Below are positions 8,823 through 56,003 of a stretch of DNA of 64,000 nt, piece after piece. Source of the stretch: Prosthecobacter sp. (GTDB lineage Bacteria; Verrucomicrobiota; Verrucomicrobiia; Verrucomicrobiales; Verrucomicrobiaceae); contig NZ_JAXMIH010000008.1 in the NCBI RefSeq assembly GCF_034366625.1, forward strand, positions 62,001 to 126,000, written 5' to 3'. Under the pieces are notes generated by a model. It saw only the letters and a program-made list of their open reading frames with translations, did not search any database and was not told the DNA's origin. Both the position numbers and the translations under genes were made by a program. How positions within the stretch are numbered: the stretch's first letter is position 1; each line of letters starts with the position of its first letter.

Positions 8823-8873
8823 TTTTCCACGGCATCCGCGCAGGTAGAAGAAAAAAATATCCCCCTTTCATCA

Positions 8874-9623
8874 TCAGAAGTCACGCCGCCTGCGCCGCCT
8901 GCGCCGCCTGCGCCGCCGCGCCACCCCCAGCAGCCCAGCCAGCAGCAGCAGTGCGCGTGACGGCTCCGGCGCGGAGGAGGTGAACTCGAACTGGAGCACC
9001 GGGAAGCTGGTTTGGAAGTTGCCGCTGGTCGCCCCAAACCCACTGCTGTTGAGGTTTCGTATGATTGAGCTGTCGGTTGTCTCCCCATCGACGGATGTGA
9101 AATCCGAGAATCCCCTTTTCCTGAACATGAAGATCAGATCCCCGCCTTGGTAGGTGTAGGGAGTGTCAAAGGAGATCAACTGGCCGAAGGCTCTCGGCAC
9201 GCCGCTTTCCGGCATCAGCGCGTCGTAAATAGTCAGCGGTCCGTCACGCACCAGCACGGGATCGATCATGTTGGTGGCGAAGGTGGTGGACATGTTGGCC
9301 AGATCAAAGGCCGCCTGAGCCAGGGTGATCTCGAAGTCGCTGCTGGTGCGGTCACCGATCATCGTGGTTATGCCGTTGAGGCGGGCGCGGACGCCGGTGA
9401 GGAGGTTCCCGGCCTGTAGGCCCTGTGCCACCAGATCGGAGGCTGCGATTTGCATCTGACCAGTATTGGTGTTGTTGGCCAAAAAGCTGGCGGTGAAACT
9501 CCCCTCCGTGGTGGCGAGGTGGTACACCGAATCGCCGAAGACCAGGGTGGCCGCGGAGGCAGGAGCGCAGGGCAGCAGCAGGCAGAGGCCACAGTGGAGG
9601 AGAAGGGACGGGTGCAGAGTCAT
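8874..9623 (-). CDS. PEP-CTERM secreted protein with 12-arginine tail
   Basis: A 249-aa exported protein. The ATG at 9623 is preferred over a GTG at 9641 because it starts a standard signal peptide (MTLHPSLLLHCGLCLLLPCA, cleavage near ASA-A). The body has no recognised enzymatic domain and is predicted beta-rich. The C-terminus is a PEP-CTERM sorting signal: APEPSRALLLLAGLLGVA followed by twelve arginines and Asp-Phe. PEP-CTERM proteins are processed by exosortase and tied to exopolysaccharide-producing bacteria. The arginine run comes from an in-frame 9-bp repeat (CGGCGCAGG three times), so its length may vary between strains. It lies between the ECF sigma gene and the kinase gene, all leftward, suggesting one regulatory unit. 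No exosortase is in the window. Confidence 0.75.
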   Translation of the reverse strand: MTLHPSLLLHCGLCLLLPCAPASAATLVFGDSVYHLATTEGSFTASFLANNTNTGQMQIAASDLVAQGLQAGNLLTGVRARLNGITTMIGDRTSSDFEITLAQAAFDLANMSTTFATNMIDPVLVRDGPLTIYDALMPESGVPRAFGQLISFDTPYTYQGGDLIFMFRKRGFSDFTSVDGETTDSSIIRNLNSSGFGATSGNFQTSFPVLQFEFTSSAPEPSRALLLLAGLLGVARRRRRRRRRRRRDF

Positions 9624-9673
9624 GGCTTCAGCGGGATTCACGCAAAGCGCCGCGAAACGTTCCCCGGAAAGTC

Positions 9674-10563: not shown

Positions 10564-10593
10564 TTGAGCTTGGAAAGCCGGTGTTGTTAACAT
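10564..10593 (+). promoter_or_regulatory. Possible promoter of the double sialidase-like gene
   Basis: TTGAGC (10564-10569) and TAACAT (10588-10593) are 18 nt apart. The -10 box lies inside the palindrome at 10585-10597, an arrangement expected for repression by a LacI-type protein. Confidence 0.35.
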
Positions 10594-10597
10594 AACA
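10585..10597. promoter_or_regulatory. Palindromic operator TGTTA-ACA-TAACA
   Basis: A perfect 5-bp inverted repeat with 3-bp spacer, 63 nt before the sialidase-like gene at 10660. The same motif with one spacer base changed (TGTTA-GCA-TAACA) lies at 45503-45515 next to the lacI-type gene, in front of a paralogous sialidase-like gene. It is probably the operator of that regulator. Confidence 0.6.
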
Positions 10598-10659: not shown

Positions 10660-13101
10660 ATGAAACACACGCTCCTGCTCCTCTCTCTGCTCGTTCTGGA
10701 TGCTGCCGCTCAGGACAAGGCGTTGCTCGACCTCGCGCTGGAGCCGCCAGTCATCAATACTGCGCCCGGCCCTGAATACGATGCGGACAAGCGCCCCGGA
10801 AACATGATCATCGGCATCGACCGCACACCGAAGGGCCGCCTGTGGGCTGCGTGGGTCGGCAATGGCGACTCGCCGAACGGCTTCTTCATGCTGGCGACGA
10901 GTGATGACGATGGGAAGTCGTGGTCAAAGCCGCGCGTCGTGATTGATCCGCAGGATGGAGAGCTGAATGGCGTGCGCTATGAGCGCCGTGCGCTCGTCGG
11001 CAACCTCTGGACTGATCCTTTGGGCCGCTTGTGGTGCTTTTTTGATCAAAGCCTCGGCTACTTCGACGGGCGCTGTGGTGACTGGTATATCCGCTGCGAT
11101 GATCCTGATGCCGCCGAGCCTAAATGGACCGCGCCAGTGCGTTTCGCCGATGGTTGCACACTGAACAAGCCCACCGTGCTCAGCAACGGCGACTGGCTGT
11201 TGCCAGTGGCGCTCTGGACTCGCGACCGCATGCACGGCCCCGGCGTGGACAAGGAGGCACACAAGGATCTCGATGTGATCCGCATGGCGAACGTCTTCGC
11301 CAGCACCGACCAAGGCAAAACGTGGGCGCGACGCAGTGGCGTGGCATTCCCGCGCACCGATTTCGACGAGCACATGATCGTCGAGCGCAAGGACGGCAGC
11401 CTCTGGATGCTCGCCCGCACGAAGGACGGCATCAGCGAGAGCACTTCCTCGGACAAGGGAATGACGTGGAGCGAGCCGCAGCCGAGCACGATTCAGAATC
11501 CCAGCGCACGCTTTTTCATCCGCCGTCTCGCCAGCGGAAAGCTCATTCTAGTTAAGAATGGGCCGATCAATGTGCGCCTGCCGAACCGCACGAACTTGAA
11601 GGCGTTCTTGTCGGATGACGATGGCAAGACTTGGGGCAAGGGGCTGCTCATTGATGATCGTGCCTCCGTCTCGTATCCCGATGGCTTCCAGGCACCGAAT
11701 GGCGACATCCACATCCTCTATGATTGGAACCGCCACACCGACGCCGAGATCCTGCACACGAAGTTTACCGAAGCAGACTTTGCTCCGCGCAAACCGGCCC
11801 CGGTGACTCCGCTGGATCATAACAAACCACGCGCCACCAACGCCGCACCCGTTTGGATCCCCAAGAAGACGGTCGTCAATAAAGCTCACGCGCCACATTT
11901 GCCGAAGGACATCAAGCCTGATCCCAAATGGGCCGCGCAGGCCGCCGAAGACGCGAAGCAGGACTTCAAGAGCATCCCGTATGACGGCATCACGCCGAAT
12001 AAGATGGTTTGTGATACCACCCTGCGTGAGCTGCCAGATGGATCATGGATTCTATTCATCCTGGCCGGTGGCGACACTGAGCCGTCGCCGCTGAACTACA
12101 CCGGCGTCACGCGCAGCACGGATCAGGGCAAAACCTGGACGCCGCTGGCACCCTTCGATGTCGGTTTCCCACGTGAGGGCAAGACCATCGGCCAGGGACC
12201 GACGGAACTCATGATCCTCGGCCAGCGCAGCACGCTGTTCTTCTCCACGCACTCGAAGCACTGGGCCAATGACTGGCGCTCGTGGTATCTCACCAGCGAC
12301 GACTCGTTCAAGACCTGGAGCAAGCCGATGGAAGTGCCCGGACGCCTCAAGGAGCGCACCTTCATCCGCAAGCACATCGTCTGCAAAGACGGGCGCATCA
12401 TGATCCCCTTCCAGCATTACATCGGTCCCGATGACGAACAGAAAAAGGCACCGCTCGACCGCTCCTTCACCAACCCGCGCAACGGCGTCCTCATCAGCAG
12501 TGATGGCGGCAAAACATGGAGCGAGCACGGCAACATCCGCCTCACGCCGAACAGCCGCTACTTCGGCTGGGCGGAGAACGATCTCTTCGAGCATCCTGAT
12601 GGCCGCATTACCATGGTCATCCGCGCGGATGGCCTCGGCGGACTGCTTTACAAAGCCGAATCAAAAGACGGAGGCAAAACCTGGCCTGAGTTCGCCAGCG
12701 TCACCAGCATCCCGAACCCCGGCAGCAAAACCACGCTCTACAACCTCGGCCCCAGAAAGCTTTCACAGAAGATAACGGAGCAAACGAAGGATTCAGAATC
12801 TCCGTTGCCTTCGTTATCTCCTGTTCAAAATCAGGAAACTCCGGTGCATGACGCCGTCGCCATCCTGCACAATCCCAACAGCAAGCACCGCAGCCCCATG
12901 GCCCTCTGGATCAGCTTTGACGGCATGAAGACCTGGCCCTACCAGCGTGTGCTCCAGCAAGAGTCCGTCGATGGCCCCAAAGGCCGCATGAACTACCCCG
13001 ACGGCTTCGTCAGCAAAGACGGTCAGTGGCTCCACTTCGCCTTCGACGACAATCGTCATCGCGCGGTGCATTACAGCGCGAAGCTGCCGCCGTTGAAGTG
13101 A
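10660..13101 (+). CDS. Secreted double beta-propeller sialidase-like protein
   Basis: An 813-aa exported protein (signal peptide MKHTLLLLSLLVLDAAAQ) with two sialidase-fold propellers, about residues 35-375 and 410-810. Asp-box repeats (S/T-x-D-x-G-x-T-W) are frequent: SDDDGKSW, TDQGKTW, SDKGMTW, DDDGKTW, SSDGGKTW, SKDGGKTW. Exo-sialidases and related glycosidases use this fold; I could not place the catalytic Arg triad, so substrate is open. The first propeller is closely related to the middle propeller of the 1407-aa protein at 45572 (shared MIIG-DRTPKGR, GCTLNKPTVL, NGDWLLPV), and both genes share a palindromic operator. Residues ~700-724 are encoded by an in-frame palindromic repeat (12760-12830) and look like a low-complexity insertion (QTKDSESPLPSLSP). 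Its stop is only 3 bp from the convergent gene. Confidence 0.85.
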   Translation: MKHTLLLLSLLVLDAAAQDKALLDLALEPPVINTAPGPEYDADKRPGNMIIGIDRTPKGRLWAAWVGNGDSPNGFFMLATSDDDGKSWSKPRVVIDPQDGELNGVRYERRALVGNLWTDPLGRLWCFFDQSLGYFDGRCGDWYIRCDDPDAAEPKWTAPVRFADGCTLNKPTVLSNGDWLLPVALWTRDRMHGPGVDKEAHKDLDVIRMANVFASTDQGKTWARRSGVAFPRTDFDEHMIVERKDGSLWMLARTKDGISESTSSDKGMTWSEPQPSTIQNPSARFFIRRLASGKLILVKNGPINVRLPNRTNLKAFLSDDDGKTWGKGLLIDDRASVSYPDGFQAPNGDIHILYDWNRHTDAEILHTKFTEADFAPRKPAPVTPLDHNKPRATNAAPVWIPKKTVVNKAHAPHLPKDIKPDPKWAAQAAEDAKQDFKSIPYDGITPNKMVCDTTLRELPDGSWILFILAGGDTEPSPLNYTGVTRSTDQGKTWTPLAPFDVGFPREGKTIGQGPTELMILGQRSTLFFSTHSKHWANDWRSWYLTSDDSFKTWSKPMEVPGRLKERTFIRKHIVCKDGRIMIPFQHYIGPDDEQKKAPLDRSFTNPRNGVLISSDGGKTWSEHGNIRLTPNSRYFGWAENDLFEHPDGRITMVIRADGLGGLLYKAESKDGGKTWPEFASVTSIPNPGSKTTLYNLGPRKLSQKITEQTKDSESPLPSLSPVQNQETPVHDAVAILHNPNSKHRSPMALWISFDGMKTWPYQRVLQQESVDGPKGRMNYPDGFVSKDGQWLHFAFDDNRHRAVHYSAKLPPLK
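12760..12830. repeat. In-frame palindromic repeat inside the sialidase-like gene
   Basis: Two imperfect inverted arms of about 33-35 nt face each other: the left arm runs ACAGAAGATAACGGAG-CAAACGAAGG and the right arm mirrors it as CTCCGTTGCCTTCGTTATCT-CCTGT. The element adds about 24 codons without breaking the frame. It resembles a miniature palindromic mobile repeat that has landed in a surface loop. No second copy was noticed in the window. Confidence 0.7.
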
Positions 13102-15062: not shown

Positions 15063-15176
15063 GGCGGCTGGCGGGACGCCTTCCTGCAAAGCAGGAGCAA
15101 TGCCATTACGGTGTCCCAGACGTGTTGAGGTGACACAAAGCTCGTTTTACCACGTTCCAAGACACCTCAGCCAGCC

Positions 15177-18448: not shown

Positions 18449-18501
18449 GCGTATCGTCACATGCCGGTTGCAAAAGCAGCCGTCCCGTCCTGCTTTCGCC
18501 G

Positions 18502-19161
18502 ATGAACAACGCCTTTCCCGAAGATCTCCGCCTCCAACTCAACCGCACCGGCGTCATTGCCGTTTTGATGATCGACCGTGTCGAGGACGCCGTGCCGCTG
18601 GCGCGGGCTTTGCTCGCGGGCGGTGTGGATTGCATCGAACTCACGCTGCGCACCGATGCCGCACTCGAATCGCTGCGGCGCATCCGTGCCGAGGTGCCGG
18701 AGATGACCGTCGGCGTGGGCACGATTTTGACGCCAAAGCAGGCGAACGATGCCAAGGAGGCTGGTGCGAGCTTCGGCGTCGCTCCGGGGATGAATCCGCG
18801 CGTCGTCGCCGAGGCGCAGCGCATTGGGCTTCCCTTCGCGCCGGGCGTTTGCACGCCGACGGACATCGAACTTGCTCTCGAAGCGGGCTGCAAGGTGCTG
18901 AAGTTTTTCCCCTCGGAGCCGAGCGGCGGCCTGATCTACCTGCGCAGCATCGTGGCACCCTTCGCTCATCTCGGCGTGCAATTCATTCCGCTCGGCGGTG
19001 TAAGCGCGGCGAATGCGGCGAATTATTTGAAGGAGCCGTCCGTGCTCGCGCTCGGTGGCTCATGGCTCGCGCCGAAGGACTTGATCATCAGAAGCGGCTG
19101 GCAGGCCATCACCACTCTCGCGCGTGAGGCCAGCGACATCGTGAAACAGGTCCGTCCATGA
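18502..19161 (+). CDS. eda: KDPG aldolase
   Basis: Cleaves 2-dehydro-3-deoxy-6-phosphogluconate to pyruvate and glyceraldehyde 3-phosphate in the cytoplasm. 219 aa from the ATG at 18502, a normal length. Motifs: GVIAVLMID, the Glu-containing IELTLRTDAAL, VGVGTIL, APGMNPRVV, the Schiff-base lysine in KVLKFFPSE, and the phosphate-binding IPLGGVSAANAANYL. The kinase that makes its substrate (19158) overlaps by ATGA. Upstream lie the sulfatase and SGNH-like genes, suggesting that uronate-derived KDG is the fate of the glycan. No convincing Shine-Dalgarno site precedes the start. Confidence 0.92.
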   Translation: MNNAFPEDLRLQLNRTGVIAVLMIDRVEDAVPLARALLAGGVDCIELTLRTDAALESLRRIRAEVPEMTVGVGTILTPKQANDAKEAGASFGVAPGMNPRVVAEAQRIGLPFAPGVCTPTDIELALEAGCKVLKFFPSEPSGGLIYLRSIVAPFAHLGVQFIPLGGVSAANAANYLKEPSVLALGGSWLAPKDLIIRSGWQAITTLAREASDIVKQVRP

Positions 19162-20189
19162 GCCGCGTCGTCACGTTGGGCGAAATCATGGCCCGCATCG
19201 CCACGCCGGGCTTTGCGCGGTTTCAGCAGGCGATGCCGGGCGGCGTGAATGTCACCTTTGCAGGAGCGGAGGCCAGCATCGCGGCCTCGCTGGCCTATCT
19301 CGGCATCGACGCGGCCTTTGTGACCGCCTTGCCTCAGCACGCCATCGCCGATGCCTGCATCGCCGATCTGCGCAGCCTCGGTGTGGAGACGAAACACATC
19401 CTGCGCACGCCTGAGGGCCGCCTAGGTATCTACTTCCTCGAACACGGCGCGAACCAGCGCGGCGGCAATGTCATTTACGACCGCGACGGCTCCTCCGTGG
19501 CGATCACGCCCGCGTCCGCTTACGATTGGGACGCGATCTTCACCGGTTGCGAATGGTTTGTCATCTCCGGCATCACGCCCGCCATCTCACGCAATGCCGC
19601 CGAGGTCTCGTTCATCGCCGTGCAGGAGGCGGCACGTCGCCAGATCAAAGTTGTGTGCGACATGAACTACCGCACCAAGCTCTGGCGCTGGGAGCCGCCG
19701 CTCTCTGCCCGCGAACTCGCCACGCGCACGATGAAAACGCTCCTGCCGCACGTCACCGTCTTCGTCGGCGGCATCAGCGATGCCACGGCGATGCTCGGCA
19801 TCGAGCACAATGACGATTTGCATGAATTGGCGCGGCAAATCGTCTCCCAATTCCCAAACCTCACCCACACCGCCTTCACCCTGCGCGATGGCAGCACCTC
19901 TGCCGCGCAATGCTTCAGCGGCGCGCTTTACGAAGCCGCCACCGGCACGCTCCACACCGCGCCGAGTTACACCATCACTCAAATCATCGACCGCCTCGGC
20001 GCAGGCGATGCGTTCACGGCGGGCTTGGTGTTTTCATTCCTCCAAAACTCCACCACTCCAACCGCCATCTCCTTCGCCACCGCCGCAGGTTGCCTCGCGC
20101 ATTCCATCGAAGGTGATTACAATTACAGCACGCGTGAGGAGATCGAATCACTCATGCAAGGGGATGGCGGCGGAAGAGTGAGCCGGTAA
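19158..20189 (+). CDS. kdgK: 2-keto-3-deoxygluconate kinase (PfkB family)
   Basis: Phosphorylates 2-keto-3-deoxygluconate to KDPG, the substrate of the overlapping upstream aldolase gene. 343 aa. PfkB-family features: N-terminal VVTLGEIMARIATP, substrate-binding PGGVNVTFAGAEASIAASLAYLG, and the C-terminal ATP/anion-hole signature DRLGAGDAFTAGLVFSFL with the catalytic Asp. It starts within the aldolase stop (ATGA), so the pair is translationally coupled. Together they form the final two steps of uronate and alginate/pectin catabolism. Confidence 0.9.
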   Translation: MSRVVTLGEIMARIATPGFARFQQAMPGGVNVTFAGAEASIAASLAYLGIDAAFVTALPQHAIADACIADLRSLGVETKHILRTPEGRLGIYFLEHGANQRGGNVIYDRDGSSVAITPASAYDWDAIFTGCEWFVISGITPAISRNAAEVSFIAVQEAARRQIKVVCDMNYRTKLWRWEPPLSARELATRTMKTLLPHVTVFVGGISDATAMLGIEHNDDLHELARQIVSQFPNLTHTAFTLRDGSTSAAQCFSGALYEAATGTLHTAPSYTITQIIDRLGAGDAFTAGLVFSFLQNSTTPTAISFATAAGCLAHSIEGDYNYSTREEIESLMQGDGGGRVSR

Positions 20190-21606: not shown

Positions 21607-21618
21607 TCTATTCTCATC

Positions 21619-38928: not shown

Positions 38929-38964
38929 TAGTTTTTATCCACGCCTGCCGTGATGATTGGCCCC

Positions 38965-44404: not shown

Positions 44405-44470
44405 TAGCATAGGCTTTCTAGCCTGTGATGATCAACACGAACATCGACACAGCCTAGAAAGGCTATGCTA
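44405..44470. repeat. Full-length palindromic repeat copy 3
   Basis: Left arm starts TAGCATAGGCTTTCTAGCC and the right arm mirrors it over 23 bp with two mismatches (44405-44427 with 44448-44470), 20-nt centre. It fills the gap between pepD and the lacI-type gene and supplies the TAG stop of the latter. Confidence 0.85.
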
Positions 44471-45500
44471 CGACACTCGGCCCATCCACCCACTGCGGCG
44501 GGATCATGATCTGGCGTGGCACCTCGGGCACGCCGTGCTCATGCTGCGAGAGCTGCGTGACGATCAAATCGACCGCTGCAGCGGCGAGATGATCGCGTTG
44601 CTGATAAATCCCCGCGAAGTCCGTCATCTTGGGCGTCCAGTCATGCACTACGAAGCCGATGTCCTGTGGAATGCGCAGGCCGAGGCGCTTCAGCCAGCCT
44701 GGAATATGAGTGTCGAACGTGATCAGCGCGTCCGGCTGGTGCTCGCGCATCCATTTCGCAAAAGCCTCGAAGCCCTTGCTGATGTCGTTGCTCGGGAACA
44801 GCAGCAGCGGCACGCGATCTTCCGCTGACAAACCGTGCTGCCAGTGAAACAAGCCGCCGCTGTAGCCGAACTGCGAGCGGTTCACGATCCACTTCGTCAC
44901 CGCCACGCCGATGCGCCGGTAGCCACGCGCATGGAGTTGCTCCGCCGCCGTGTGGATGCCCAGCGTCATGTTTCCTGCGCACATGTGCAGCGCGGGCGTG
45001 CTCATCGCATTCCCAAACGTCACCGCCGCGAAGGGCGAGTAGTCCAGCTTGCTGCATGGAAGCTGCATGCTCTGCGGCGAAACGATCACGCCCTCAATGC
45101 CTCGCGCGTGCAGGATCTTTTGCAGCCGCTTCGGCGTCAGGCCGTCCTTGCCCAGATAAAACTCCGCCACCGCATAACCATGCCCGTGCGCACGTCGGCG
45201 GATGTCCTCGATGGGCACATATTGATACGACGGGCTCAGCAACCCGTCCTGCGGCACATGCTCACGGATCACCGCGATCACCGCCCGCACCCGCGTCTCC
45301 TTCTTGCCCCGCACCACCTGCATCATCCGCGCCAGATGCGGGTCCGGCTGGTAATCGAGCCGCTTTGCCTCACGCAGCACCAGCTCCCGCTTCTCCGCCG
45401 AAACCTTTGGCGCTCCACGCAGCACCCGCGACACCGTCATCATCGACACGCCAGCGGCGCGGGCGATGTCTTTGAGCGTGGCGGAGGTGGTTTCGGGCAT
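44463..45500 (-). CDS. LacI-family transcriptional regulator
   Basis: A 345-aa regulator. The N-terminal helix-turn-helix is classic LacI (TLKDIARAAGVSMMTVSRVLRG, quoted in part: KDIARAAGVSMMTVSRVL), followed by a hinge and a periplasmic-binding-type sugar-sensing domain (residues ~65-340: ARGIEGVIVSP, ARGYRRIGVAVTKWIVNR, FDTHIPGWLKRLGLRIP). It diverges from the 1407-aa triple-propeller gene; the palindrome TGTTA-GCA-TAACA lies 2 bp before its own ATG, so it probably represses itself and the operon. The same palindrome occurs before the paralogous sialidase-like gene at 10660. The effector is presumably a sugar. Stop codon lies within palindromic repeat copy 3. Confidence 0.93.
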   Translation of the reverse strand: MPETTSATLKDIARAAGVSMMTVSRVLRGAPKVSAEKRELVLREAKRLDYQPDPHLARMMQVVRGKKETRVRAVIAVIREHVPQDGLLSPSYQYVPIEDIRRRAHGHGYAVAEFYLGKDGLTPKRLQKILHARGIEGVIVSPQSMQLPCSKLDYSPFAAVTFGNAMSTPALHMCAGNMTLGIHTAAEQLHARGYRRIGVAVTKWIVNRSQFGYSGGLFHWQHGLSAEDRVPLLLFPSNDISKGFEAFAKWMREHQPDALITFDTHIPGWLKRLGLRIPQDIGFVVHDWTPKMTDFAGIYQQRDHLAAAAVDLIVTQLSQHEHGVPEVPRQIMIPPQWVDGPSVVA

Positions 45501-45502
45501 GG

Positions 45503-45515
45503 TGTTAGCATAACA
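45503..45515. promoter_or_regulatory. Palindromic operator TGTTA-GCA-TAACA
   Basis: A perfect 5+3+5 palindrome in the 71-bp gap between the lacI-type gene and the triple-propeller gene. It overlaps a possible leftward -10 box (TATGCT). The same motif is found at 10585-10597. Confidence 0.65.
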
Positions 45516-45571: not shown

Positions 45572-48500
45572 ATGACCTTCCGACCTCTTTTCTGCCTCCT
45601 TGCGATCTCGGCACTTCTTTGCGTCCAAAGCCTGGCTCAGAGTCTCGTTCCCGCGAACTGGGACCCGGCGCTCGCTGGAGACATCGTGATGCAGCGCCTC
45701 GTGAACACCTCCGCGCCTCGCGTGAAAGGCACGCACGATGCGGAGTTTATCTGCATCGGCGACCGCGGTTATCTCGTGACCGAGGCGAATGATCGGCGCG
45801 CGGGGGAAAGCTCGGGCTGGCCTTTCATCTACGTCACGATGTCCATCGTGAATCTGAAGACGCTCGCGCTGGAAAGGGTCATCGACTTCGCCCGCAGCGA
45901 GCAGGTCTTTGAAAACGAGACGCTGCCGTTCGGGCAGTGCTTCGTGCCGCGGATTCTTCAGAAGGATGCGAAGACGCTGCGTTGTTATTTCACCAGTCAG
46001 GATCCCGGCAAGCGGCAGTCGCAGATGTGGTATATCGACTTCGATCTGGAACGCGCGGCGTTCGAGAACCGCATTTTTCGTGCGAAGCTCAAAACGGCGG
46101 CTGGCACCTTCGACATGCAGCCGCAGTATTTTCATGCGGATGCGGCGGCGCAGGGCTTCAAGCGGCCGGCCAGGGACGCGGGCTTGTTCATTTTCGATTC
46201 GTTCAAGCAATTCGACGGCAAGACCTACGTCGCGCTGAACAACTTCCCCGTCGGGCAGAACGCGCTCGCGCTAGTCCACGACGACCTCGTCACCTTTGAA
46301 GTCGTCGGCCATTACAACGAGCCGCAATCGCAGCAGCTCAGCGAATCCGCCGTGAACAAACTGCCCGACGGCACCTGGATGGCGATCTGCCGCAACGACA
46401 AGGGCAACTACCACTTCACCACGAGTGCCGATGGCAAAACCTGGAGCGTCGGCACGGAGATGCCTTTCGTGAATGGCTCAAACTCGAAACCCACTTTCGA
46501 CAAGTTTGGCGGCATCTACTATCTCGGCTGGCAGGATGCCGAACTGATCAACCGCGACCGCCGCACCATCTTCAACATCGACATCTCCCGCGATGGCAAA
46601 ACCTGGGAGCGCAAATACCGCTTCGTGACACCGTATTCATTCCAGTATCCCACGCTGCATGAGCATCAGGGCGTGATCTGGCTCAGCGTCACCCAAGGAA
46701 CGTTGAAGGACCGCATCATGTTCGGCAAGCTGGAGGATGTGGGCCAGTTCGAATCCCTTGCTGGCAAAAAGCGCATTTCCTGGCCTGCGCCACTGCGCGC
46801 GGATCAGGGCACCATGAAGCGCGGCGAGAAGCTGTTCACAGATCGCGAGTATGTGATCGACCAATTGCCTGATCAGGTGCGCGACATGCCCTTCCTGCGC
46901 ACCAGCATCGAGAAGACCGATGTGAGAGTCAGCAAGGCGGGCACGCTCTACGCCCTGACACCGACGAACCGCCCGAAAGCGGCCTGTCAGCATGACGCGC
47001 TGATCAAGGCAGGCTTCAGCAAAGTCGAAGTGCCCGAGGTGCAGCTTTTTCCCGGTGAGATCAATCGCGTGAGCCTTTACCGCAAGGAGGTGAAGACCGG
47101 CGAGCGGCTGCAATTCAAGAAGATGGTGCTGCTCATCATGGGCCAGGGCGTGAAGCTCGGGGCGCTGAATCCCGATGAGCCGCTGATCCTCATGAATCCG
47201 GGGGCGGAGTTTCAGGATGAGGCGCGGCCGGGCGCGATGATCATCGGCATGGATCGCACGCCGAAGGGTAGGATCTGGGGCTGCTGGACGGGCACGGGCG
47301 ACAAGAAGGACGGCTACTTCCTGCTGGCGACGAGCGATGACGATGGCACGACGTGGTCGAAGCCGCGTCTGGCGGTCGGCGCACGCACCGAGTTCACGCA
47401 GAAGCTCAGCGGGGCGCTGGTGGGCAATCTGTGGACCGATCCAAAGGGCCGCTTGTGGTTGTTTTTCGATCAGCAGCTCGGCGATGCCGCAGGACGCATC
47501 AGCAACTGGTTCATCCGCTGCGACAACCCGGATGCCGACGCGCCCGAGTGGTCAGAGCCGGTGAAGTTTGCGGAAGGCTGCACACTGAACAAACCGACGG
47601 TGCTCAAAAACGGCGACTGGCTGCTGCCGGTGTCGGATTGGCAGAAGAAAACAGCGCGTGTGTTTGCCTCAACCGATGAAGGCGCAACGTGGAAGGAGCG
47701 CGGCAGCTTGCAGTTTCCTGACTGGCAGTTCGACGAGCACATGACCGTCGAGCTGCGCGACGGCCGTCTGTGGATGCTCGCTCGCACAAGTGGTCAGCCG
47801 CACGAGAGTTTTTCCACCGATGGCGGCGCGACATGGAGCGCACCGAAGCAAGCCGCGACGGTGCAGAATGTCAGCTCACGCTTCTTTCTGCGTCGGCTCA
47901 AATCCGGCCGCATCCTCCTCGTGAAAAACGGCTCGCCTGCCGAGCGCCTGCCAAAGCGCACGCACATGTCCGCCTATCTCTCTGACGACGAAGGCCAGAC
48001 ATGGAAAGGCGGCCTGTTGCTCGATGAACGCAACGCAGTGTCCTACCCCGATGGCTTTGAGTCGCCCGATGGCCTCATCCACATCCTCTATGATTGGAAC
48101 CGCCACAGCGATGCCGAGATCCTCATGGCGAAGTTCCGCGAGGACGATGTGCTCGCGGGCAAGGTCGTGTCGAAAGACGCGAAGCTGCTCATGCTCGTGA
48201 ACAAAGCCACCGGCCCGAAGCCCGAGAAGCTCTACAACGGCATCGAGCTGTCGCTGCCATGGCCGCCGCCCTTTCGCGATCCGAACTCTGCCGAGCCGAT
48301 GGAAGTGCCGTATTTGAAGCGTCCACTCAAGTCGATCCCGATTGATGTGGGTCGCCAGCTTTTCGTGGACGACTTCCTCATCGAGAAAACCACGCTCAAA
48401 CGCACCTTTCATCAGGCGAAAAAGTTCGAGGGCAATCCCGTCTTCAAAGCCGAGACCGAGCGCGAACTCGGTAAGTCCACAGAGGGTGAGAAGGGCGAGG

Positions 48501-49795
48501 AAGCCACCACCTTCACCGGACAAGGCGGCGTGTTTTACGATCCGGCGGAAAAGCTCTTCAAGATGTTCTACGTCGCCGGTTGGCGCGGACCCCTCTCGCT
48601 CGCCACGAGTCCTGACATGAAGACTTGGACACGTCACGGCCAGCTTTTGCCCGAAGGCTTGCGCTGGACCGGCCCGAAGCTCGCCACCGGTGGCTCCGAC
48701 AACTGCGTGTGGCTCGATTTGAACGCAAAAAGCCCCGCCGAGCGCATCAAGTATCTGACCTGCTGGCTGCATGTGCCGAAGGAGCAGCGGCCCGATGGCT
48801 TCATGCACTCGCTGCATGTCTCCGATGGCAAAACGTGGTCCGACGCCGCGCCCACCACAATTGCGGCAGATGATTACTGCTCCTTCTTCTACAATCCATT
48901 CCGTGAGAAGTGGTGCTTTAGCATCAAGCGCGGCACGTCGCGTGGCCGCAGCCGTTACTACCATGAGAGTGACGAGTTCCTCAAAGGCGCTGACTGGGGC
49001 AAAGGCGTGTATTGGACCTGTGCCGACAAACTCGATCTTCCCGAGCCGAAAGACCGCTATACTGGCGCAGGTGAGCAGGCGCAGCTCTACAGCCTGAATG
49101 CCGTGGCGTATGAGAGCCTCATGGTCGGCATGCACTACATCCATCGCGGCCCAAAGAATGACATCTGTGAGAAGGGCAAGTTCCCGAAGCTGCTCGATCT
49201 CGAACTCGGCTTCAGCCGCGATGGCTTCCACTGGGATCGACCGGATCGCCGAGGCTTCATCGTTGGTTCACGCACCGAAGGCTCGTGGGATCGCGCTTAT
49301 CTGCATGGCGCGGCGGGCGTCTTCGTGGTGCTCGACGACCAGCTCGTCTTCCCCTATATGGGCACCAGCGGCATCGCACCGAGCGGTCATCGCGGCATGT
49401 ATACCGGCGGCAGCATCGGCCTCGCCACGCTGCGACGCGATGGCTTTGCGAGCATGGATGGCTCTGGTGAGCTGACGACGCGTCCGGTGAAGTTCAAAGG
49501 CAAGCATCTCTTCGTGAACGTGAATGGAGAAGTGCGTGTGGAAGTGCTCGATGAGGCTGGAAAGGTGCTGCGAAGCTCCAAACCGGCGGTGGGTGACCAA
49601 ACCAAGCTCAAGATCGAATGGACCGACGGCGCGGACTTGTCGGACATGGCCGGGCGAAATGTGAAATTGCGCTTCCATCAGACGAAGGGCTCGTTGTATG
49701 CCTTTTGGGTCACGCCGGACGAAAAAGGCAACAGCAACGGCTACGTCGGCGCAGGCGGGCCGGACTTTGGCGGCGTGAGAGACATCTCCCAATAA
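45572..49795 (+). CDS. Secreted 1407-aa triple-propeller glycosidase-like protein
   Basis: An exported protein (signal peptide MTFRPLFCLLAISALLCVQSLA) that joins three propeller units. Unit 1 (about 25-450) is a divergent sialidase-like domain (SADGKTW, SRDGKTWERK). Unit 2 (about 530-900) is a sialidase-like domain paralogous to the first propeller of the protein at 10660 (MIIGMDRTPKGR, SDDDGTTWSK, GCTLNKPTVL). Unit 3 (about 920-1407) resembles five-bladed glycosidase propellers (VGRQLFVDDFLIE, FYDPAEKLFKMFYVAGWRG, SRDGFHWDRPDRR) with a C-terminal beta domain. The fusion suggests successive cleavage of one glycan. It lies under the LacI-type operator and 4 nt before the BASS transporter gene. 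Catalytic residues are not assigned. Confidence 0.85.
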   Translation: MTFRPLFCLLAISALLCVQSLAQSLVPANWDPALAGDIVMQRLVNTSAPRVKGTHDAEFICIGDRGYLVTEANDRRAGESSGWPFIYVTMSIVNLKTLALERVIDFARSEQVFENETLPFGQCFVPRILQKDAKTLRCYFTSQDPGKRQSQMWYIDFDLERAAFENRIFRAKLKTAAGTFDMQPQYFHADAAAQGFKRPARDAGLFIFDSFKQFDGKTYVALNNFPVGQNALALVHDDLVTFEVVGHYNEPQSQQLSESAVNKLPDGTWMAICRNDKGNYHFTTSADGKTWSVGTEMPFVNGSNSKPTFDKFGGIYYLGWQDAELINRDRRTIFNIDISRDGKTWERKYRFVTPYSFQYPTLHEHQGVIWLSVTQGTLKDRIMFGKLEDVGQFESLAGKKRISWPAPLRADQGTMKRGEKLFTDREYVIDQLPDQVRDMPFLRTSIEKTDVRVSKAGTLYALTPTNRPKAACQHDALIKAGFSKVEVPEVQLFPGEINRVSLYRKEVKTGERLQFKKMVLLIMGQGVKLGALNPDEPLILMNPGAEFQDEARPGAMIIGMDRTPKGRIWGCWTGTGDKKDGYFLLATSDDDGTTWSKPRLAVGARTEFTQKLSGALVGNLWTDPKGRLWLFFDQQLGDAAGRISNWFIRCDNPDADAPEWSEPVKFAEGCTLNKPTVLKNGDWLLPVSDWQKKTARVFASTDEGATWKERGSLQFPDWQFDEHMTVELRDGRLWMLARTSGQPHESFSTDGGATWSAPKQAATVQNVSSRFFLRRLKSGRILLVKNGSPAERLPKRTHMSAYLSDDEGQTWKGGLLLDERNAVSYPDGFESPDGLIHILYDWNRHSDAEILMAKFREDDVLAGKVVSKDAKLLMLVNKATGPKPEKLYNGIELSLPWPPPFRDPNSAEPMEVPYLKRPLKSIPIDVGRQLFVDDFLIEKTTLKRTFHQAKKFEGNPVFKAETERELGKSTEGEKGEEATTFTGQGGVFYDPAEKLFKMFYVAGWRGPLSLATSPDMKTWTRHGQLLPEGLRWTGPKLATGGSDNCVWLDLNAKSPAERIKYLTCWLHVPKEQRPDGFMHSLHVSDGKTWSDAAPTTIAADDYCSFFYNPFREKWCFSIKRGTSRGRSRYYHESDEFLKGADWGKGVYWTCADKLDLPEPKDRYTGAGEQAQLYSLNAVAYESLMVGMHYIHRGPKNDICEKGKFPKLLDLELGFSRDGFHWDRPDRRGFIVGSRTEGSWDRAYLHGAAGVFVVLDDQLVFPYMGTSGIAPSGHRGMYTGGSIGLATLRRDGFASMDGSGELTTRPVKFKGKHLFVNVNGEVRVEVLDEAGKVLRSSKPAVGDQTKLKIEWTDGADLSDMAGRNVKLRFHQTKGSLYAFWVTPDEKGNSNGYVGAGGPDFGGVRDISQ

Positions 49796-49799
49796 CTTC

Positions 49800-50732
49800 A
49801 TGAAACGCTTCTTCGACTGGTTCAACAATCTCTACCCCGTGTGGCTCGTCACGCTGGCGGTCATCGCGTTTTTCAAGCCACAGACGATGCTGTGGTTCGA
49901 CAAGCCGTGGATCTTCTGGTCGCTGGCGGCGTCGATGCTCGGCATGGGGCTCACCTTGAGTCTGGACGACTTCAAAGCCATCGGCCGCATGCCGGGGAGT
50001 GTCGCGCTGGGATTCATCGCGCAATACACGATCATGCCGCTGTCAGGCTGGATGGTGGCGACGGCGCTGAAGCTGGAGCCGGGCCTCGCCGTGGGCATCA
50101 TTCTGGTGGCGAGCTGCCCCGGCGGCATGGCGTCGAACATGATCAGCTACCTCGCCAAAGCGAACGTGGCGCTGTCCGTGGTGCTCACGATGGCCTCGAC
50201 GATGCTCGCGTTCTTCTTCACACCAATGTGGACGAGTCTGCTGGCGGGCAAGTATGTGCCGGTGGACGCGTGGGGGCTCTGTGTGTCCGCTTTTCAGCTC
50301 ACCATCGCGCCCGTGGTGCTCGGCGTGCTCATCCGATGGAAATTGCCGCGCACGGCGGATCAAATCGGGGCCTGCGGGCCGACGGTGGCCGTGCTGGCCT
50401 TCACGCTCGTGAGCGGCGGCATCGTGGCCGCAAGCGCGGACGCCATCGAGGCGAATTTTGGCAAGCTGGCGCTCGCAGCCTTCGTGCTGCATGTGCTGGG
50501 TTTTGGTGTGGGCTATGCCATATCAAAGGTGCTGCGTTATCCTGAGTCCGTGGCCCGCACGGTCAGCATCGAGGTCGGCATGCAAAACGGCGGCATGGCA
50601 GCGTCACTCGCCCGTGAGCACTTTGCTGCGATGCCGCTCGCGGCTGCGGCAGGTGTCTTCAGCGGTGTGCTGCAAAACATCATCGGCGGCCTGCTGGCGT
50701 CATGGTGGAAACGACGCACACCTGACGCATGA
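49800..50732 (+). CDS. BASS-family sodium-dependent transporter
   Basis: A 310-aa inner-membrane protein of the bile acid:sodium symporter (SBF) family with about nine to ten hydrophobic helices. Family traits: LGMGLTLSLDDF, IAQYTIMPLSGW, ILVASCPGGMASNMISYLAKANVALSV (the sodium-site crossover; quoted in part: SCPGGMASNMISYLA), and EVGMQNGGMAASLA. BASS proteins move organic acids with sodium. It follows the triple-propeller gene by 4 nt and overlaps the kinase-like gene by ATGA, so it probably imports a product of the secreted enzyme, perhaps an acid sugar. Confidence 0.9.
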   Translation: MKRFFDWFNNLYPVWLVTLAVIAFFKPQTMLWFDKPWIFWSLAASMLGMGLTLSLDDFKAIGRMPGSVALGFIAQYTIMPLSGWMVATALKLEPGLAVGIILVASCPGGMASNMISYLAKANVALSVVLTMASTMLAFFFTPMWTSLLAGKYVPVDAWGLCVSAFQLTIAPVVLGVLIRWKLPRTADQIGACGPTVAVLAFTLVSGGIVAASADAIEANFGKLALAAFVLHVLGFGVGYAISKVLRYPESVARTVSIEVGMQNGGMAASLAREHFAAMPLAAAAGVFSGVLQNIIGGLLASWWKRRTPDA

Positions 50733-51847
50733 GCCGCCGCGACATCTATTATTGGAAATGCGACCGTCCGGCAGCCTTTCACGGCACGCAGTCGCGTGGC
50801 GAGGTGGATGCGAATCTAGCATCCCAACTCGAAACAGAGCTTCAAAGGCACTTCGACACGCAAAACGTCATTTTGAGCCCCGGAGCCGGTCAGGGCAATC
50901 ATCTCACCTGGAATGCCGACGTGGATGGAAAGCCGCTTTTCATCCGCGTGGAGAATGGGCCCGAAAAAGACGCGCATCTGGCCGTGGAGTCGGCTTTGCT
51001 CGATCGGGTGCGTGTGGCGGGTGTGGTTACGCCGCGAGTTTTCGGCTGCGATGCTTCACGAAGCCGCGTTTCATTCGCGTGGCAGGCTTTGGAGCGGATC
51101 GAGGCACCGGATTTGAATCAGTGGTTCAAGCAAGGGACGCTGGAGGTGCCGAAGATCGCGTTCGAGATCGGCGTGGCGGTGGCGAAGTGGCAAGCGATCA
51201 CGCTGGAGGGGTTTGGTGTTCTAGAGTGGTCCGGACAGTCCTCTGTGCGGAACGAAGGCCAAGCGACGCTCGAACCGCACAGAGGACTGTGCGGACCACA
51301 TTGGGCTTACGCCGACTACTTCCATTTGCGGCTGGAGGAGCATTTGAGCTTTCTCGTTTCGCGCGACTTTCTGACCAGTGCGGAGGAGATCATGACCGAG
51401 ATCGAAAACCACCGAGCCTTGCTCGATCTGCCGCAAGGCTGCCTTGTCCACAAAGACCTCGCGCTCTGGAACATCCTCGGCACACGCGATCAAATCGCCG
51501 CCTTCATCGACTTCGACGACGCGATCAGTGGCGATCCGATGGATGATCTCTCACTGCTCGCCTGCTTCCACGATGCCGCGTTTCTTCAGAGAGCCTTCGA
51601 GGGCTATCAAAGCATCCACGTCTTGCCAGAGCATCACATGCGTCGCTTCTGGCTGCATCTGCTGCGGAACATGATCGTGAAGGCCGTTATCCGCGTCGGC
51701 GCGGGCTATTTTGATCGTGACGACGGCTTTTTCCTCATCAGCAGTGGCTCATCCGGTTCAAGTCTGCGCGAAATGACGCAATCACGGCTCGCATTAGCCT
51801 TGCGCGGCTTGCGCGAGGGCAGCGGCCTCGACATTCTATCACCATGA
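50729..51847 (+). CDS. APH-fold small-molecule kinase
   Basis: A 372-aa protein with the aminoglycoside phosphotransferase/choline kinase fold. Catalytic loop LVHKDLALWNILG (HxDxxxxN) and metal-binding FIDFDDAISGDPMDDLS are intact; N-terminal lobe has GAGQGNHLTW and a lysine/valine strand. Located between transporter and aldolase genes (4-nt overlaps on both sides), it is likely to phosphorylate a small imported metabolite rather than an antibiotic. Residues ~166-191 come from an in-frame palindromic repeat (51226-51299) and read as an insertion. Confidence 0.78.
   Translation: MSRRDIYYWKCDRPAAFHGTQSRGEVDANLASQLETELQRHFDTQNVILSPGAGQGNHLTWNADVDGKPLFIRVENGPEKDAHLAVESALLDRVRVAGVVTPRVFGCDASRSRVSFAWQALERIEAPDLNQWFKQGTLEVPKIAFEIGVAVAKWQAITLEGFGVLEWSGQSSVRNEGQATLEPHRGLCGPHWAYADYFHLRLEEHLSFLVSRDFLTSAEEIMTEIENHRALLDLPQGCLVHKDLALWNILGTRDQIAAFIDFDDAISGDPMDDLSLLACFHDAAFLQRAFEGYQSIHVLPEHHMRRFWLHLLRNMIVKAVIRVGAGYFDRDDGFFLISSGSSGSSLREMTQSRLALALRGLREGSGLDILSP
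51226..51299. repeat. In-frame double-hairpin repeat in the kinase-like gene
   Basis: Two arms of 25 nt (51226-51250 and 51275-51299) are inverted copies with one mismatch. Each arm is itself a small hairpin, CCGCACAG-AGGA-CTGTGCGG in the right arm. The centre is 24 nt. The structure resembles paired REP sequences (BIME-like) but lies within a coding region without breaking the frame. Confidence 0.8.
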
Positions 51848-52554
51848 AAACTCACATCGGCACCTTTCTCTCCATCGGATCACCTGCGGTTACGGAACTC
51901 GCAGCGGAATGCGGCTTTGACTGGGTTCTCATCGACTTGGAGCACGGCTGTGAATCCGAAGCAGCATTACCAAACCAACTGCGCGCCCTGCGTGGCAGCC
52001 AGACGCTGGCGATTGTGCGCGTGAGTGCTCCGCATCCTGATTTGATCAGCCGAGTGCTCGACTGGGGCGCGGACGGCATCATGGTGCCGCATGTGAACAC
52101 CGTCGCGGAAGCGCAGCATTGCGTTGATGCCGCCTACTATCCGCCGAAAGGCCATCGTGGCGTCTCACGCACCGTTCGAGCTTATGGCTACGGCATGAGA
52201 CTTCCGGCGGGTGCGATGCCGAAGCCGATCATCCTCGCTCAAATCGAAACAGCCGATGCGGTGGCAAATGCGGATCAAATCGCTGCGGTGGAGGGCATTG
52301 ATGCTCTGTTCATTGGCCCGGCAGATTTGAGCTACGACTTGAAGGCCCGGAACTCACCGCTGCCTTATGATGACTGCGTGAACACCATCGTGAAAGCCAC
52401 GAAGGTTCACGGCAAAGGCTGCGGCATCCTCGTGCGGCATGCGGATGATCAGGCGAAGCTGCTCGAAATGGGCTTTACTTGGCTGGCGATGGATTCTGAT
52501 CTGTCGCTCGTGCGAGAGGGCTTCAAACGGAATCTGGCAGCGGCGCGGAAATAG
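51844..52554 (+). CDS. HpcH/HpaI-family aldolase
   Basis: A 236-aa metal-dependent class II aldolase. Motifs: FDWVLIDLEHGCES (active-site Glu/His region), GADGIMVPHVNTVAEA, the metal ligand Glu in LAQIETADAVAN, and FIGPADLSYDL with the ligand Asp. Family members (RhmA, HpcH, GarL) cleave 2-keto-3-deoxy acids to pyruvate and an aldehyde. It overlaps the kinase-like gene by 4 nt (ATGA) and ends the operon that starts with the triple-propeller gene. Confidence 0.88.
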   Translation: MKTHIGTFLSIGSPAVTELAAECGFDWVLIDLEHGCESEAALPNQLRALRGSQTLAIVRVSAPHPDLISRVLDWGADGIMVPHVNTVAEAQHCVDAAYYPPKGHRGVSRTVRAYGYGMRLPAGAMPKPIILAQIETADAVANADQIAAVEGIDALFIGPADLSYDLKARNSPLPYDDCVNTIVKATKVHGKGCGILVRHADDQAKLLEMGFTWLAMDSDLSLVREGFKRNLAAARK

Positions 52555-53947: not shown

Positions 53948-53957
53948 ATTGAAAGCC

Positions 53958-56003
53958 ATGACACGTTTTGCCATCCTGTTCTTCGCCCTCAGTCTCTGCG
54001 CGCATGCCGCCACGGAGGCGGATGTGATTGTTTATGGAGCCACGCCGGGCGGGTTTTGTGCCGCCATTGCCGCGGCGCGTGAGGGAGCGTCCGTGATCCT
54101 GCTGGAGCCGACGGCTCATGTCGGGGGCGTGAATACAGGAGGGCTTTGCTTCAGCGACTCGAATCAAACGGTGCGCAGCACGGTGCTGGGTTTGTTTGAT
54201 GAATGGCACTCTCGTGTCGAAAAGGACTACCAGCGGCGAGGCGTCGAACTGCCTTACAAGGTAAGCGAGAAGGATCACAAGCACTGGACCTATGAGCCTC
54301 ACGTCGCGGCAAAGATCACGAAGGAGATGCTTGATGAAGCTGGCGTGAAGGTGCTGACGAAGCGCGTGCTCAAGTCAGTGATCAAAGACGGCGCACACAT
54401 CACGAAGCTCACGACGAGTGAGGGCGACTTCGCGGCCAAAGTCTTCATCGACGGCACCTACGAGGGCGATTTTATGGCCGCAGCCGGCGTGAACTGGACG
54501 ATTGGCCGCGAGGGGCGAAAAGAGTTCGGTGAGTCGCTGGCCGGGAAGCAGTACCCGAAGGCGAAGATGGCGATTTCGGGCCTCGGAACCGATGGCAAGC
54601 CGCTGCCGCTCGTCACCACGACGGATGCCGGCCCCGACGAGGCAGGCGACAAAAACGTGATGGTCTATAGCTTCCGTCTCTGTGTGACGAAAGACCCGGC
54701 GAACCGCGTGCCGTTTCCGAAGCCCGCGAACTACGATCCGGCACGATTTGAGGTCGTGAGGCATTACTTTGCGCAGGAAAAGCGACCGCATCAGCTGTGG
54801 GACCTGTATCCGCTGCCGGGGAACAAGTTCGACGCGAACAACGGCATCGGGAAACAGTTCTCCATGGGGCTCGTTGGTGCCTGCAATGGCTGGAGCGAGG
54901 CGGATGAGGCGGGTCGCGCGAAGATCTGGGAGGCGCACAAGCAATACACGTTGGAGATGCATCACTTCCTCAGCACCGATCCCGCCGTGCCGGTCGCGAT
55001 TCGCGAGGAATACGCGCAGATCGGCCTCTGCCGCGATGAATTTCCCGAATACGGCCACTGGTCCCCGCAGCTCTACGTCCGCGAAGGCCGCCGCATGATC
55101 GGCGAATACGTCGTCTCGCAGAAAGACATCATGGATGAGCCGAAAAAGGACGATGCCATCGTTGTGTCATCCTTCCCTATCGACTCGCACGACTGCCAGC
55201 GCGTCGGAACGGGAGAAATGGTCGTCAATGAAGGCACCATCATGCCAGTGCGCATTCCAGGCCGCAGACACGGTTATGCGTATCACATCCCGTATCGCGC
55301 CATCACGCCGAAGGCGGCCGAATGCTCGAACTTGCTCGTGCCTGTGGCGCTCTCCTGCACCCACGTTGGCATCTCCTCGATCCGTGTGGAGCCGACGTGG
55401 ATGATCCTCGGCCAGAGCGCCGGCATTGCGGCGGCGATGAGCGCCAAACAAAACCTCGCGGTCCAAAAGCTGCCGTATCCGGCTTTGCGTGAGCGACTGC
55501 TCGCACAAAAGCAGGTGCTCGACTTACCTGTCCTCGCCGATCTGCCACCCGAACCGAAAGGCGCGGTGAACATCGACCCCAAGACGCTTCCCGGCATCGT
55601 GCTCGACGACAAGCAGGCCGAGCTGAAAGGCGAATGGAGCCACTCCTCCGGCTTCAAGCCGCACATCGGCACAGGCTACCTGCATGACGACAAGCGCGGT
55701 GACGGCCAGTCCATCGCCATCTTCCGCTTCAAAGCCCCGAAGCGAGGAAAATACGACCTCCGCATGGCCTACTCTGCCCATGAAACCCGCGCCACGAAAG
55801 TGCCGGTGACGATTGAAAGCGGGGGCCGCAAAACCGAGATCAAAGTCGATCAAACACAGCCGCTCCCCGCTGGCGAAGCCTTCCGAAGCATCGGCACTGT
55901 CGAACTCGATGCTGGTTCTGAAACGAAGATCACCGTCAGCAACACGGGAACGGACGGCTTTGTGATTTTGGATGCGCTGCAACTCAATCCCGCCAAGGAT
56001 TGA
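53958..56003 (+). CDS. Secreted FAD-dependent oxidoreductase with golvesin-like C-terminal domain
   Basis: A 681-aa exported flavoprotein (ATG 53958; signal MTRFAILFFALSLCAHA). The FAD fold begins ADVIVYGATPGGFCAAIAAAREG, then HVGGVNTGGLCFSD; the C-terminal flavin segment is GRRHGYAYHIPYRAI and MILGQSAGIAAAMS. This is the PF12831-type flavoprotein group common in Verrucomicrobial glycan clusters. Residues ~540-680 are a beta-sandwich resembling the golvesin/Xly C-terminal domain (KGEWSHSSGFKPHIGTGYLHD, DGFVILDALQLNP), probably carbohydrate-binding. A degraded copy of the end of this domain lies at 57076. Confidence 0.85.
   Translation: MTRFAILFFALSLCAHAATEADVIVYGATPGGFCAAIAAAREGASVILLEPTAHVGGVNTGGLCFSDSNQTVRSTVLGLFDEWHSRVEKDYQRRGVELPYKVSEKDHKHWTYEPHVAAKITKEMLDEAGVKVLTKRVLKSVIKDGAHITKLTTSEGDFAAKVFIDGTYEGDFMAAAGVNWTIGREGRKEFGESLAGKQYPKAKMAISGLGTDGKPLPLVTTTDAGPDEAGDKNVMVYSFRLCVTKDPANRVPFPKPANYDPARFEVVRHYFAQEKRPHQLWDLYPLPGNKFDANNGIGKQFSMGLVGACNGWSEADEAGRAKIWEAHKQYTLEMHHFLSTDPAVPVAIREEYAQIGLCRDEFPEYGHWSPQLYVREGRRMIGEYVVSQKDIMDEPKKDDAIVVSSFPIDSHDCQRVGTGEMVVNEGTIMPVRIPGRRHGYAYHIPYRAITPKAAECSNLLVPVALSCTHVGISSIRVEPTWMILGQSAGIAAAMSAKQNLAVQKLPYPALRERLLAQKQVLDLPVLADLPPEPKGAVNIDPKTLPGIVLDDKQAELKGEWSHSSGFKPHIGTGYLHDDKRGDGQSIAIFRFKAPKRGKYDLRMAYSAHETRATKVPVTIESGGRKTEIKVDQTQPLPAGEAFRSIGTVELDAGSETKITVSNTGTDGFVILDALQLNPAKD

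Follow-up and report, generated by a model that had tools for sequence, protein, structure and literature searches.

A predicted LacI-controlled operon of Prosthecobacter that probably serves the catabolism of a 2-keto-3-deoxy sugar acid

We analysed a 64,000-nucleotide stretch of the genome of a Prosthecobacter sp. (hereafter the window; C8:62001-126000 of a 6.65-Mb genome in 30 contigs) that carries a compact operon of four genes, all on the + strand. The operon opens with the gene for a predicted secreted multi-propeller enzyme of 1407 amino acids (aa) (45572..49795), which has a hydrophobic start (MTFRPLFCLLAISALLCVQSLAQ) and matches BNR_2 (2.6e-38). It continues with a BASS-family symporter (49800..50732; Pfam SBF 4.1e-39; PDB chain 8oyf, ASBT_Nm, 7.7e-59), an APH-fold kinase with an N-terminal Y-W-K-C-D motif (50729..51847; Pfam APH 3.1e-15) and an HpcH/HpaI-type class II pyruvate aldolase (51844..52554; Pfam HpcH_HpaI 4.9e-36; aldolase 1dxe 9.7e-38). 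The symporter gene follows the propeller gene after a 4-nt gap, and the BASS-kinase and kinase-HpcH junctions are both 4-nt overlaps. The list of open reading frames (ORFs) places the four genes where the initial annotation had put them, and coordinates, spacing and Pfam families all agree with its description of genes coupled at about 4 nt. None of the operon core genes encodes a dehydratase. The gene for a LacI-family repressor (lacI; 44463..45500, - strand; Pfam LacI 6.5e-17) is divergent from the four genes, whose grouping as an operon is confirmed.

The start of lacI is abutted by the operator TGTTAGCATAACA (45503..45515, + strand), which is one of two sites for TGTTANCATAACN in the 6.65-Mb genome; both lie in the window, and a reversed-pattern control gave none. 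This site is kept in many relatives, which upholds the earlier proposal of a LacI-type operator. The second of these sites, TGTTAACATAACA (10585..10597, + strand), ends 62 nt upstream of the start codon of a gene for a secreted 813-aa double BNR protein (10660..13101, + strand; BNR_2 6.9e-59), which combines a unit of the type of module B, described below, with one of BNR2 type. Relatives of this gene also lie behind the operator in many relatives, and we presume that it is the second member of the regulon. The analysed loci offer 22 rows with a lacI homologue: an exact TGTTANCATAACA accompanies 8 of them, with LacI identity as low as 57% (L145), and a form with a single mismatch accompanies 2 more.

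A scan of the genus returned 57 operator sites in 37 of 48 genomes, compared with 11 for the reversed pattern, and 11 genomes had no site. The contexts of the operator were compiled from the window and from loci L139-L158 and L164-L231. These make up 57 distinct contexts, a number that equals that of the scan by coincidence: L145, L154 and L156 are kinase loci from beyond the genus and did not come from the scan, of whose 57 sites no more than 54 are therefore covered. A propeller module, BASS or Eda lies within 500 nt downstream of the operator in 46 of the 57 contexts, and a divergent lacI is present in 21. When lacI, propeller genes, BASS and Eda are all counted as targets, the operator precedes one of them in 54 contexts, and in the remaining 3 it precedes secreted proteins that, by eye, resemble BNR propellers. 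At three loci (L177, L200 and L223) the operator stands directly upstream of BASS, with 73 nt between the start of the site and the match. A conserved palindromic operator is therefore found both at the repressor gene and at its putative targets, with the exceptions considered below. It ties the gene set together well as a predicted LacI regulon that presumably includes the second propeller gene.

The gene set is also conserved in its arrangement. A search of the order for relatives of the kinase (E<=1e-15) matched 70 of 189 genomes, while the named records yielded 84 stretches with a kinase relative, the best 80 of which were analysed; the kinase of one distant locus, L116, used as a query against 387 genomes from the phylum, had matches in 19. 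With repeats removed there are 95 distinct kinase loci, 70 of them flanked by at least 2.5 kb upstream and at least 1.5 kb downstream. Both BASS and HpcH lie within 1.5 kb of the kinase in 51 of these 70, and BASS alone in none, so that the order of transporter, kinase and aldolase, whose loss the initial annotation had named as grounds for abandoning its proposal, is kept. With repeats included, HpcH accompanies the kinase in 79 of 90 loci, BASS in 60 of 81 and a match to module A, B or C of the propeller protein in 48 of 63. The named kinase relatives come mostly from Verrucomicrobiaceae such as Prosthecobacter and Brevifollis, chiefly as metagenome-assembled genomes (MAGs); a cultured strain, Brevifollis gellanilyticus NBRC 108608, also carries the locus (L060). 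Kinases 54-75% identical to that of the operon also occur in MAGs titled Klebsiella, Akkermansia, Burkholderiales, Hyphomicrobiaceae and Betaproteobacteria (L067, L052, L081, L082, L087 and L095), whose titles may be wrong or whose bins may be contaminated.

L116, a Phycisphaerae MAG according to its title, retains the kinase at 33%, BASS at 39% and HpcH at 41% identity, and a blastp check places its BASS and kinase in one fused frame of 728 aa. The conserved order, the shared operator and this in-frame fusion of transporter and kinase all argue for a single functional unit, as had been supposed from the sequence of the window. Further fusions were sought among 15 kinase ORFs of at least 480 aa, but by blastp the ORF of L116 is the only one to include BASS in frame, and the other 14 are therefore read as over-long starts. 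A different arrangement is seen in L140, L142 and L144, from other genomes of the phylum, where a GntR-like regulator (by eye), a module-B-type protein, the kinase and HpcH stand together without BASS, which links module B to both enzymes directly. Their module-B-type proteins are 44-46% identical to module B and have no hydrophobic start, and the aldolase of L140 is split across two frames. In a simple leader test, which took the highest hydropathy within the first 40 residues, six proteins of this type (two trimmed to an inner Met) scored 0.3-1.0 compared with 2.5-2.9 for the two secreted proteins, and the cytosolic HpcH scored 1.4. Pairwise identities are correlated between kinase and HpcH (0.85, 85 sequences), kinase and BASS (0.82, 66) and BASS and HpcH (0.63, 66); these values include same-genome repeats, are uncorrected for the shared tree and are not used as proof. 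Two kinds of additional gene were considered and set aside. A gene of about 290 aa between BASS and the kinase (L044, L047, L051 and L153) appears by eye to encode a secreted protein with no evident catabolic role, and inserts of 246-248 aa between the kinase and HpcH in L069 and L076 have, by eye, the appearance of non-coding frames.

The 1407-aa protein consists of three modules that turn up shuffled in other loci. Module A (residues 24-534; 45641..47173) is a BNR-like unit of this kind that aligns with module B and with sialidases. Module B (residues 537-884; 47180..48223) yields an AlphaFold2 (AF2) model with a predicted local distance difference test score (pLDDT) of 91.6 that, in structure searches of the PDB, best matches sialidase 1eus (Z 32.8, root-mean-square deviation (rmsd) 2.4, 299 aligned). 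Among the matches listed, 49 of 50 PDB entries are sialidases or neuraminidases and the remaining one is a designed protein, so the model has the six-bladed sialidase propeller fold of glycoside hydrolase family 33 (GH33). Module C (residues 885-1407; 48224..49792) gives a model with a pLDDT of 90.0 whose structural matches cover about residues 46-412 and whose C-terminus is a beta-rich part. Its best neighbour among the matches listed is the GalNAc deacetylase 6n1a (Z 23.4, rmsd 3.6, 306 aligned); propellers of the GH43, GH62 and GH130 types and the glycosidase BT_0996 fall at Z 19.5-22.9, with BT_0996 itself at Z 20.7 (rmsd 4.0, 285 aligned). These neighbours of the model establish a fold, not a function. 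The 'triple propeller' of the initial annotation is accordingly supported for modules B and C by their predicted folds, and module A is assigned by alignment to the same family.

An alignment of module B with 37 of 41 non-redundant hits (four at 28-31% identity were left out) shows E193, R209, R267 and Y296, in the numbering of the folded stretch, to be invariant in all 38 sequences; the corresponding module C alignment holds 30 of 31 hits and the window, with one hit at 24% identity left out. Y296 and E193 align with the catalytic Tyr and Glu of GH33 sialidases encoded by the same genome. The position of the putative acid/base, D48, is D in 28 sequences, P in 7 and E in 3. The first arginine of the GH33 triad (Arg1) is absent, its column being M in 28, C in 2, G in 1 and a gap in 7, which show Gly there once extended upstream; in row L103 an Arg stands two columns past this position. 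The comparison relied on two BNR proteins encoded in this genome, both with the GH33 start motif: one matches sialidase 1eur (9.5e-30), and the other has H where the first has R. Module B, as modelled, has the GH33 fold and the nucleophile pair without the complete arginine triad, and since Arg1 is missing, sialidase-like recognition of a carboxylate is not assured. GH33 enzymes use a Tyr nucleophile (PMC10017367).

The three intracellular components carry the residues expected of their families. Catalytic positions were counted, with repeats included, in stop-free sequences covering 85% or more of the query. In the kinase, H241, D243, N248 and D261 are invariant in 97 of 97 sequences and fit HxDxxxxN plus a metal Asp, the APH catalytic motif, so that an APH-type kinase is predicted from its sequence; the Y8-W9-K10-C11-D12 motif is equally invariant (97/97). 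E258, Q262 and N263 of BASS are invariant in 67 of 67 sequences. These cross-over residues, matched to the Na+-site numbering of ASBT_Nm and PanS, and the family similarity point to a BASS symporter whose nearest solved structure is ASBT_Nm. The aldolase keeps E33, H34, E135 and D161 in 90 of 90 sequences, which, by the offset of the aligned ranges, correspond to Glu46, His47, Glu151 and Asp177 of AbHpaI. In AbHpaI these four are the metal ligands and the active-site Glu-His, and the enzyme cleaves 2-keto-3-deoxygalactonate (KDGal) and, weakly, 2-keto-3-deoxygluconate (KDG) (PMC8560999). The Glu-His loop pair and the Glu/Asp metal ligands thus predict a class II aldolase.

Other HpcH genes are found in the same genome. 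The second (L160, G000:C7:45000-58000; 6586-9642) lies beside a different APH-like kinase and genes that by eye resemble enolase, aldo/keto-reductase and PhyH, so that the HpcH-APH pairing recurs. The third (L159, G000:C8:925000-940000) has as neighbours sialidase-like proteins in which the GH33 start motif is retained, including one confirmed sialidase, together with sulfatase-like genes and an RraA-like gene (by eye). A paralogue 50% identical to the HpcH of the operon (L119, G000:C11:1-8000; 257-1027) sits near a contig end and is followed by large secreted proteins that look by eye to be of Planctomycete type.

Loci in which parts have been exchanged offer a clue to the chemistry. In L206, a locus from the genus, the operator is accompanied by a LacI paralogue (63%), Eda, a PfkB kinase, a major facilitator superfamily (MFS) transporter, a propeller protein and an FAD oxidoreductase; Eda scores above its cut-off, whereas the kinase, nearest to KDG/KDGal kinase models, and the transporter, of the TIGR00893 galactonate-transporter subfamily, both score below theirs. 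A TIGR00893 transporter also stands between the propeller gene and the kinase in L145, where BASS is absent. Given these non-homologous swaps, the simplest reading is that BASS transports a 2-keto-3-deoxy acid, with APH as its kinase and HpcH as its aldolase. The initial annotation had reasoned that BASS and APH-fold proteins are unusual in sialic-acid or uronate pathways and that the substrate may therefore be new; the argument is weak when taken alone, because L206 and L145 exchange non-homologous parts for apparently the same job.

We therefore consider it probable that the operon, under the control of LacI, serves to catabolise a 2-keto-3-deoxy sugar acid, either a 3-deoxy-2-ulosonic or a KDG-like acid. 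This reading draws on the gene set with its coupling and conservation, the operator and its targets, the catalytic residues and the predicted fold of two propeller modules; the substrate class itself is favoured by the invariant HpcH residues, by the Eda, PfkB and galactonate-type transporter that take the corresponding places in L206, and by a core gene set that includes no dehydratase. Release of the acid from a glycan would fall to the secreted modules with sialidase and GH43-like folds, BASS would import it, probably with Na+, and the APH-fold kinase would trap it by phosphorylation. The HpcH aldolase might then split it to pyruvate and an aldehyde (or aldehyde phosphate), which could enter central metabolism without further dedicated enzymes, and the acid or a product would relieve repression by LacI. 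Candidate acids include 3-deoxy-D-manno-octulosonic acid (Kdo), deaminoneuraminic acid (Kdn), 3-deoxy-D-lyxo-heptulosaric acid (Dha), KDG or KDGal, and others, and the order of kinase and aldolase is likewise our inference. For Kdo or Kdn, a kinase and an aldolase would suffice before central metabolism, and a Tyr nucleophile suits ulosonic acids. Tentatively, we suggest that the pathway may be dedicated to a 3-deoxy-2-ulosonic acid in bound form, for example Kdo, and that GH33-fold hydrolases lacking Arg1, an APH-fold kinase and an HpcH enzyme acting on the phosphorylated acid would carry it out across Verrucomicrobiota and in at least one Phycisphaerae MAG. HpcH would in this case cleave phosphorylated Kdo to pyruvate and arabinose 5-phosphate. 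Kdo aldolase (EC 4.1.2.23) is not known to have an assigned gene, and a pathway of this kind, if true, would supply Kdo catabolism with its genes. We recognised no description of this gene set in open-licence literature on it or on Kdo breakdown, as judged from titles and abstract openings.

Several observations weigh against assigning the operon to a 2-keto-3-deoxy acid, or against its being a fixed unit. No substrate-specific enzyme was identified in the gene set, and module B lacks Arg1. The operator is absent beside 12 of the 22 lacI rows, five of which have lacI next to a peptidase gene instead and seven of which have a LacI of at most 59% identity. HpcH adjoins the kinase without BASS in 11 of the 70 distinct loci, neither partner adjoins it in 8 (L064, L082, L083, L087, L095, L109, L118 and L139), and 15 of 63 well-flanked loci have no match to module A, B or C within 8 kb. 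L206 is a single case, the PfkB and MFS matches fall below the NCBIfam cut-offs, and the window carries an Eda/PfkB pair of its own. The order of steps could also be that of the nan pathway, with HpcH first splitting the free acid to pyruvate and an aldose that the APH-fold kinase then phosphorylates. GarL- and HpaI-type aldolases, the nearest solved relatives of HpcH here, act on non-phosphorylated acids. AbHpaI cleaves KDGal (PMC8560999). The fusion of BASS with the kinase in L116 favours phosphorylation before cleavage, as does the Eda/PfkB set of L206, the Eda family acting on a phosphorylated acid, and we hold the reverse order to be possible yet doubtful.

A further alternative is that the operon handles some other small organic anion, for instance a hydroxy acid resembling pantoate, or a 2-keto-aldonate from which the aldolase would produce hydroxypyruvate, while the propellers act on another sugar in the same glycan. 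Several donors are open to HpcH aldolases. The nearest solved BASS binds pantoate (PMC10645422), and the pantoate-binding Asn is invariant in the BASS of the operon. We judge this unlikely in view of the KDG-type kinase, KDPG (2-keto-3-deoxy-6-phosphogluconate) aldolase and galactonate-type transporters supplied by L206 and L145, and of the operons L140, L142 and L144, which link module B directly to the kinase and aldolase. Ordinary scavenging of the sialic acid Neu5Ac (N-acetylneuraminic acid) with replaced parts would account for the GH33 fold of module B and for the parallel with sialidase, transporter, aldolase and kinase. However, the Arg1 column holds Met in 28 and Arg in none of 38 sequences, the sister modules have Gly there, NanE has no match in the genome (controls were positive in 8 of 14 genomes), and sialidases with the Arg1 motif are present elsewhere in the same genome (L159). 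With Arg1 missing and NanE not found, ordinary sialic-acid use is very improbable.

Elsewhere in the window, Eda (KDPG/2-keto-4-hydroxyglutarate aldolase) and a PfkB (KDG-type) kinase (18466..20189, + strand) are candidate members of the regulon; Eda scores 2.6e-67, above its NCBIfam cut-off, and the KDG/KDGal kinase match 5.7e-58, below it. In five relatives (L209, L210, L211, L216 and L230) the pair follows the operator-linked BNR gene on the same strand; in the window an opposite-strand gene (13758-15089, PFK) separates it from the second operator. The window copy of Eda is the only match in the genome, UxuA has one match, elsewhere than in the window, and KduI has none (controls positive in 6 of 14), so that KDG from glucuronate is a possible substrate of the pair, and KDG from unsaturated uronates was set aside. 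At 20239-23226 lie an L-lysine 6-transaminase and an L-piperidine-6-carboxylate dehydrogenase, both above NCBIfam cut-offs, a lysine-degradation pair. Directly 3' of HpcH is a YlbF/YmcA-like gene (PF06133; 52607-53005); of the 63 well-flanked loci, 14 have a relative of this gene no more than 4 kb downstream of the kinase. The window also encodes two FAD_oxidored (PF12831) proteins (53949-56003, with a Golvesin_C domain, and 38950-40377), relatives of which recur downstream of the operon and inside that of L206.

The value of this gene set lies partly in the propellers. The genome and its relatives hold many 'sialidase'-like propellers that lack known substrates, and one operator now connects some of these, as a defined group, with a compact putative pathway, so that identifying the sugar acid used by the kinase and aldolase could reveal the role of this propeller family. 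The gene set also bears on the question of whether sugar-acid kinases can have an APH fold. Freshwater Verrucomicrobia MAGs have been reported to encode GH33 sialidases and a sialic acid transporter (PMC5673642).

The operon can be compared with several known systems. ASBT_Nm reportedly binds pantoate via Asn265, and ketopantoate binding was not found (PMC10645422). The BASS of the operon shares the cross-over residues of ASBT_Nm and PanS, with N263 equivalent to Asn265; it differs in having Met110 in place of Thr112 of ASBT_Nm, in scoring 216.3 bits where the cut-off for PanS is 400, and in being located in a glycan operon. The aldolase belongs to the sequence family of HpcH, HpaI, GarL and YfaU and keeps the same catalytic positions; unlike them it is paired with a kinase, and its best NCBIfam match reaches 164.6 bits against a cut-off of 393. 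The kdg or Entner-Doudoroff-type route consists of KdgT, KdgK and Eda. It resembles the operon in acid import, kinase and pyruvate aldolase, and L206 provides a PfkB and Eda version under the same operator; in the operon itself APH stands in for PfkB, HpcH for Eda and BASS for KdgT or MFS, the PfkB/Eda pair sitting instead in the related L206 operon. The nan operon comprises a sialidase, a sialic-acid transporter, NanA, NanK and NanE. A secreted GH33-fold enzyme, an acid transporter, a pyruvate aldolase and a kinase are likewise present here, whereas the propeller lacks Arg1, BASS is the transporter, a class II HpcH replaces a NanA-type aldolase, an APH-fold enzyme replaces a ROK kinase, and the genome has no match to NanE. 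The plan of release, import, kinase and aldolase is an ordinary one, and it is executed with unusual parts, drawn from families that are not normally combined for such a job.

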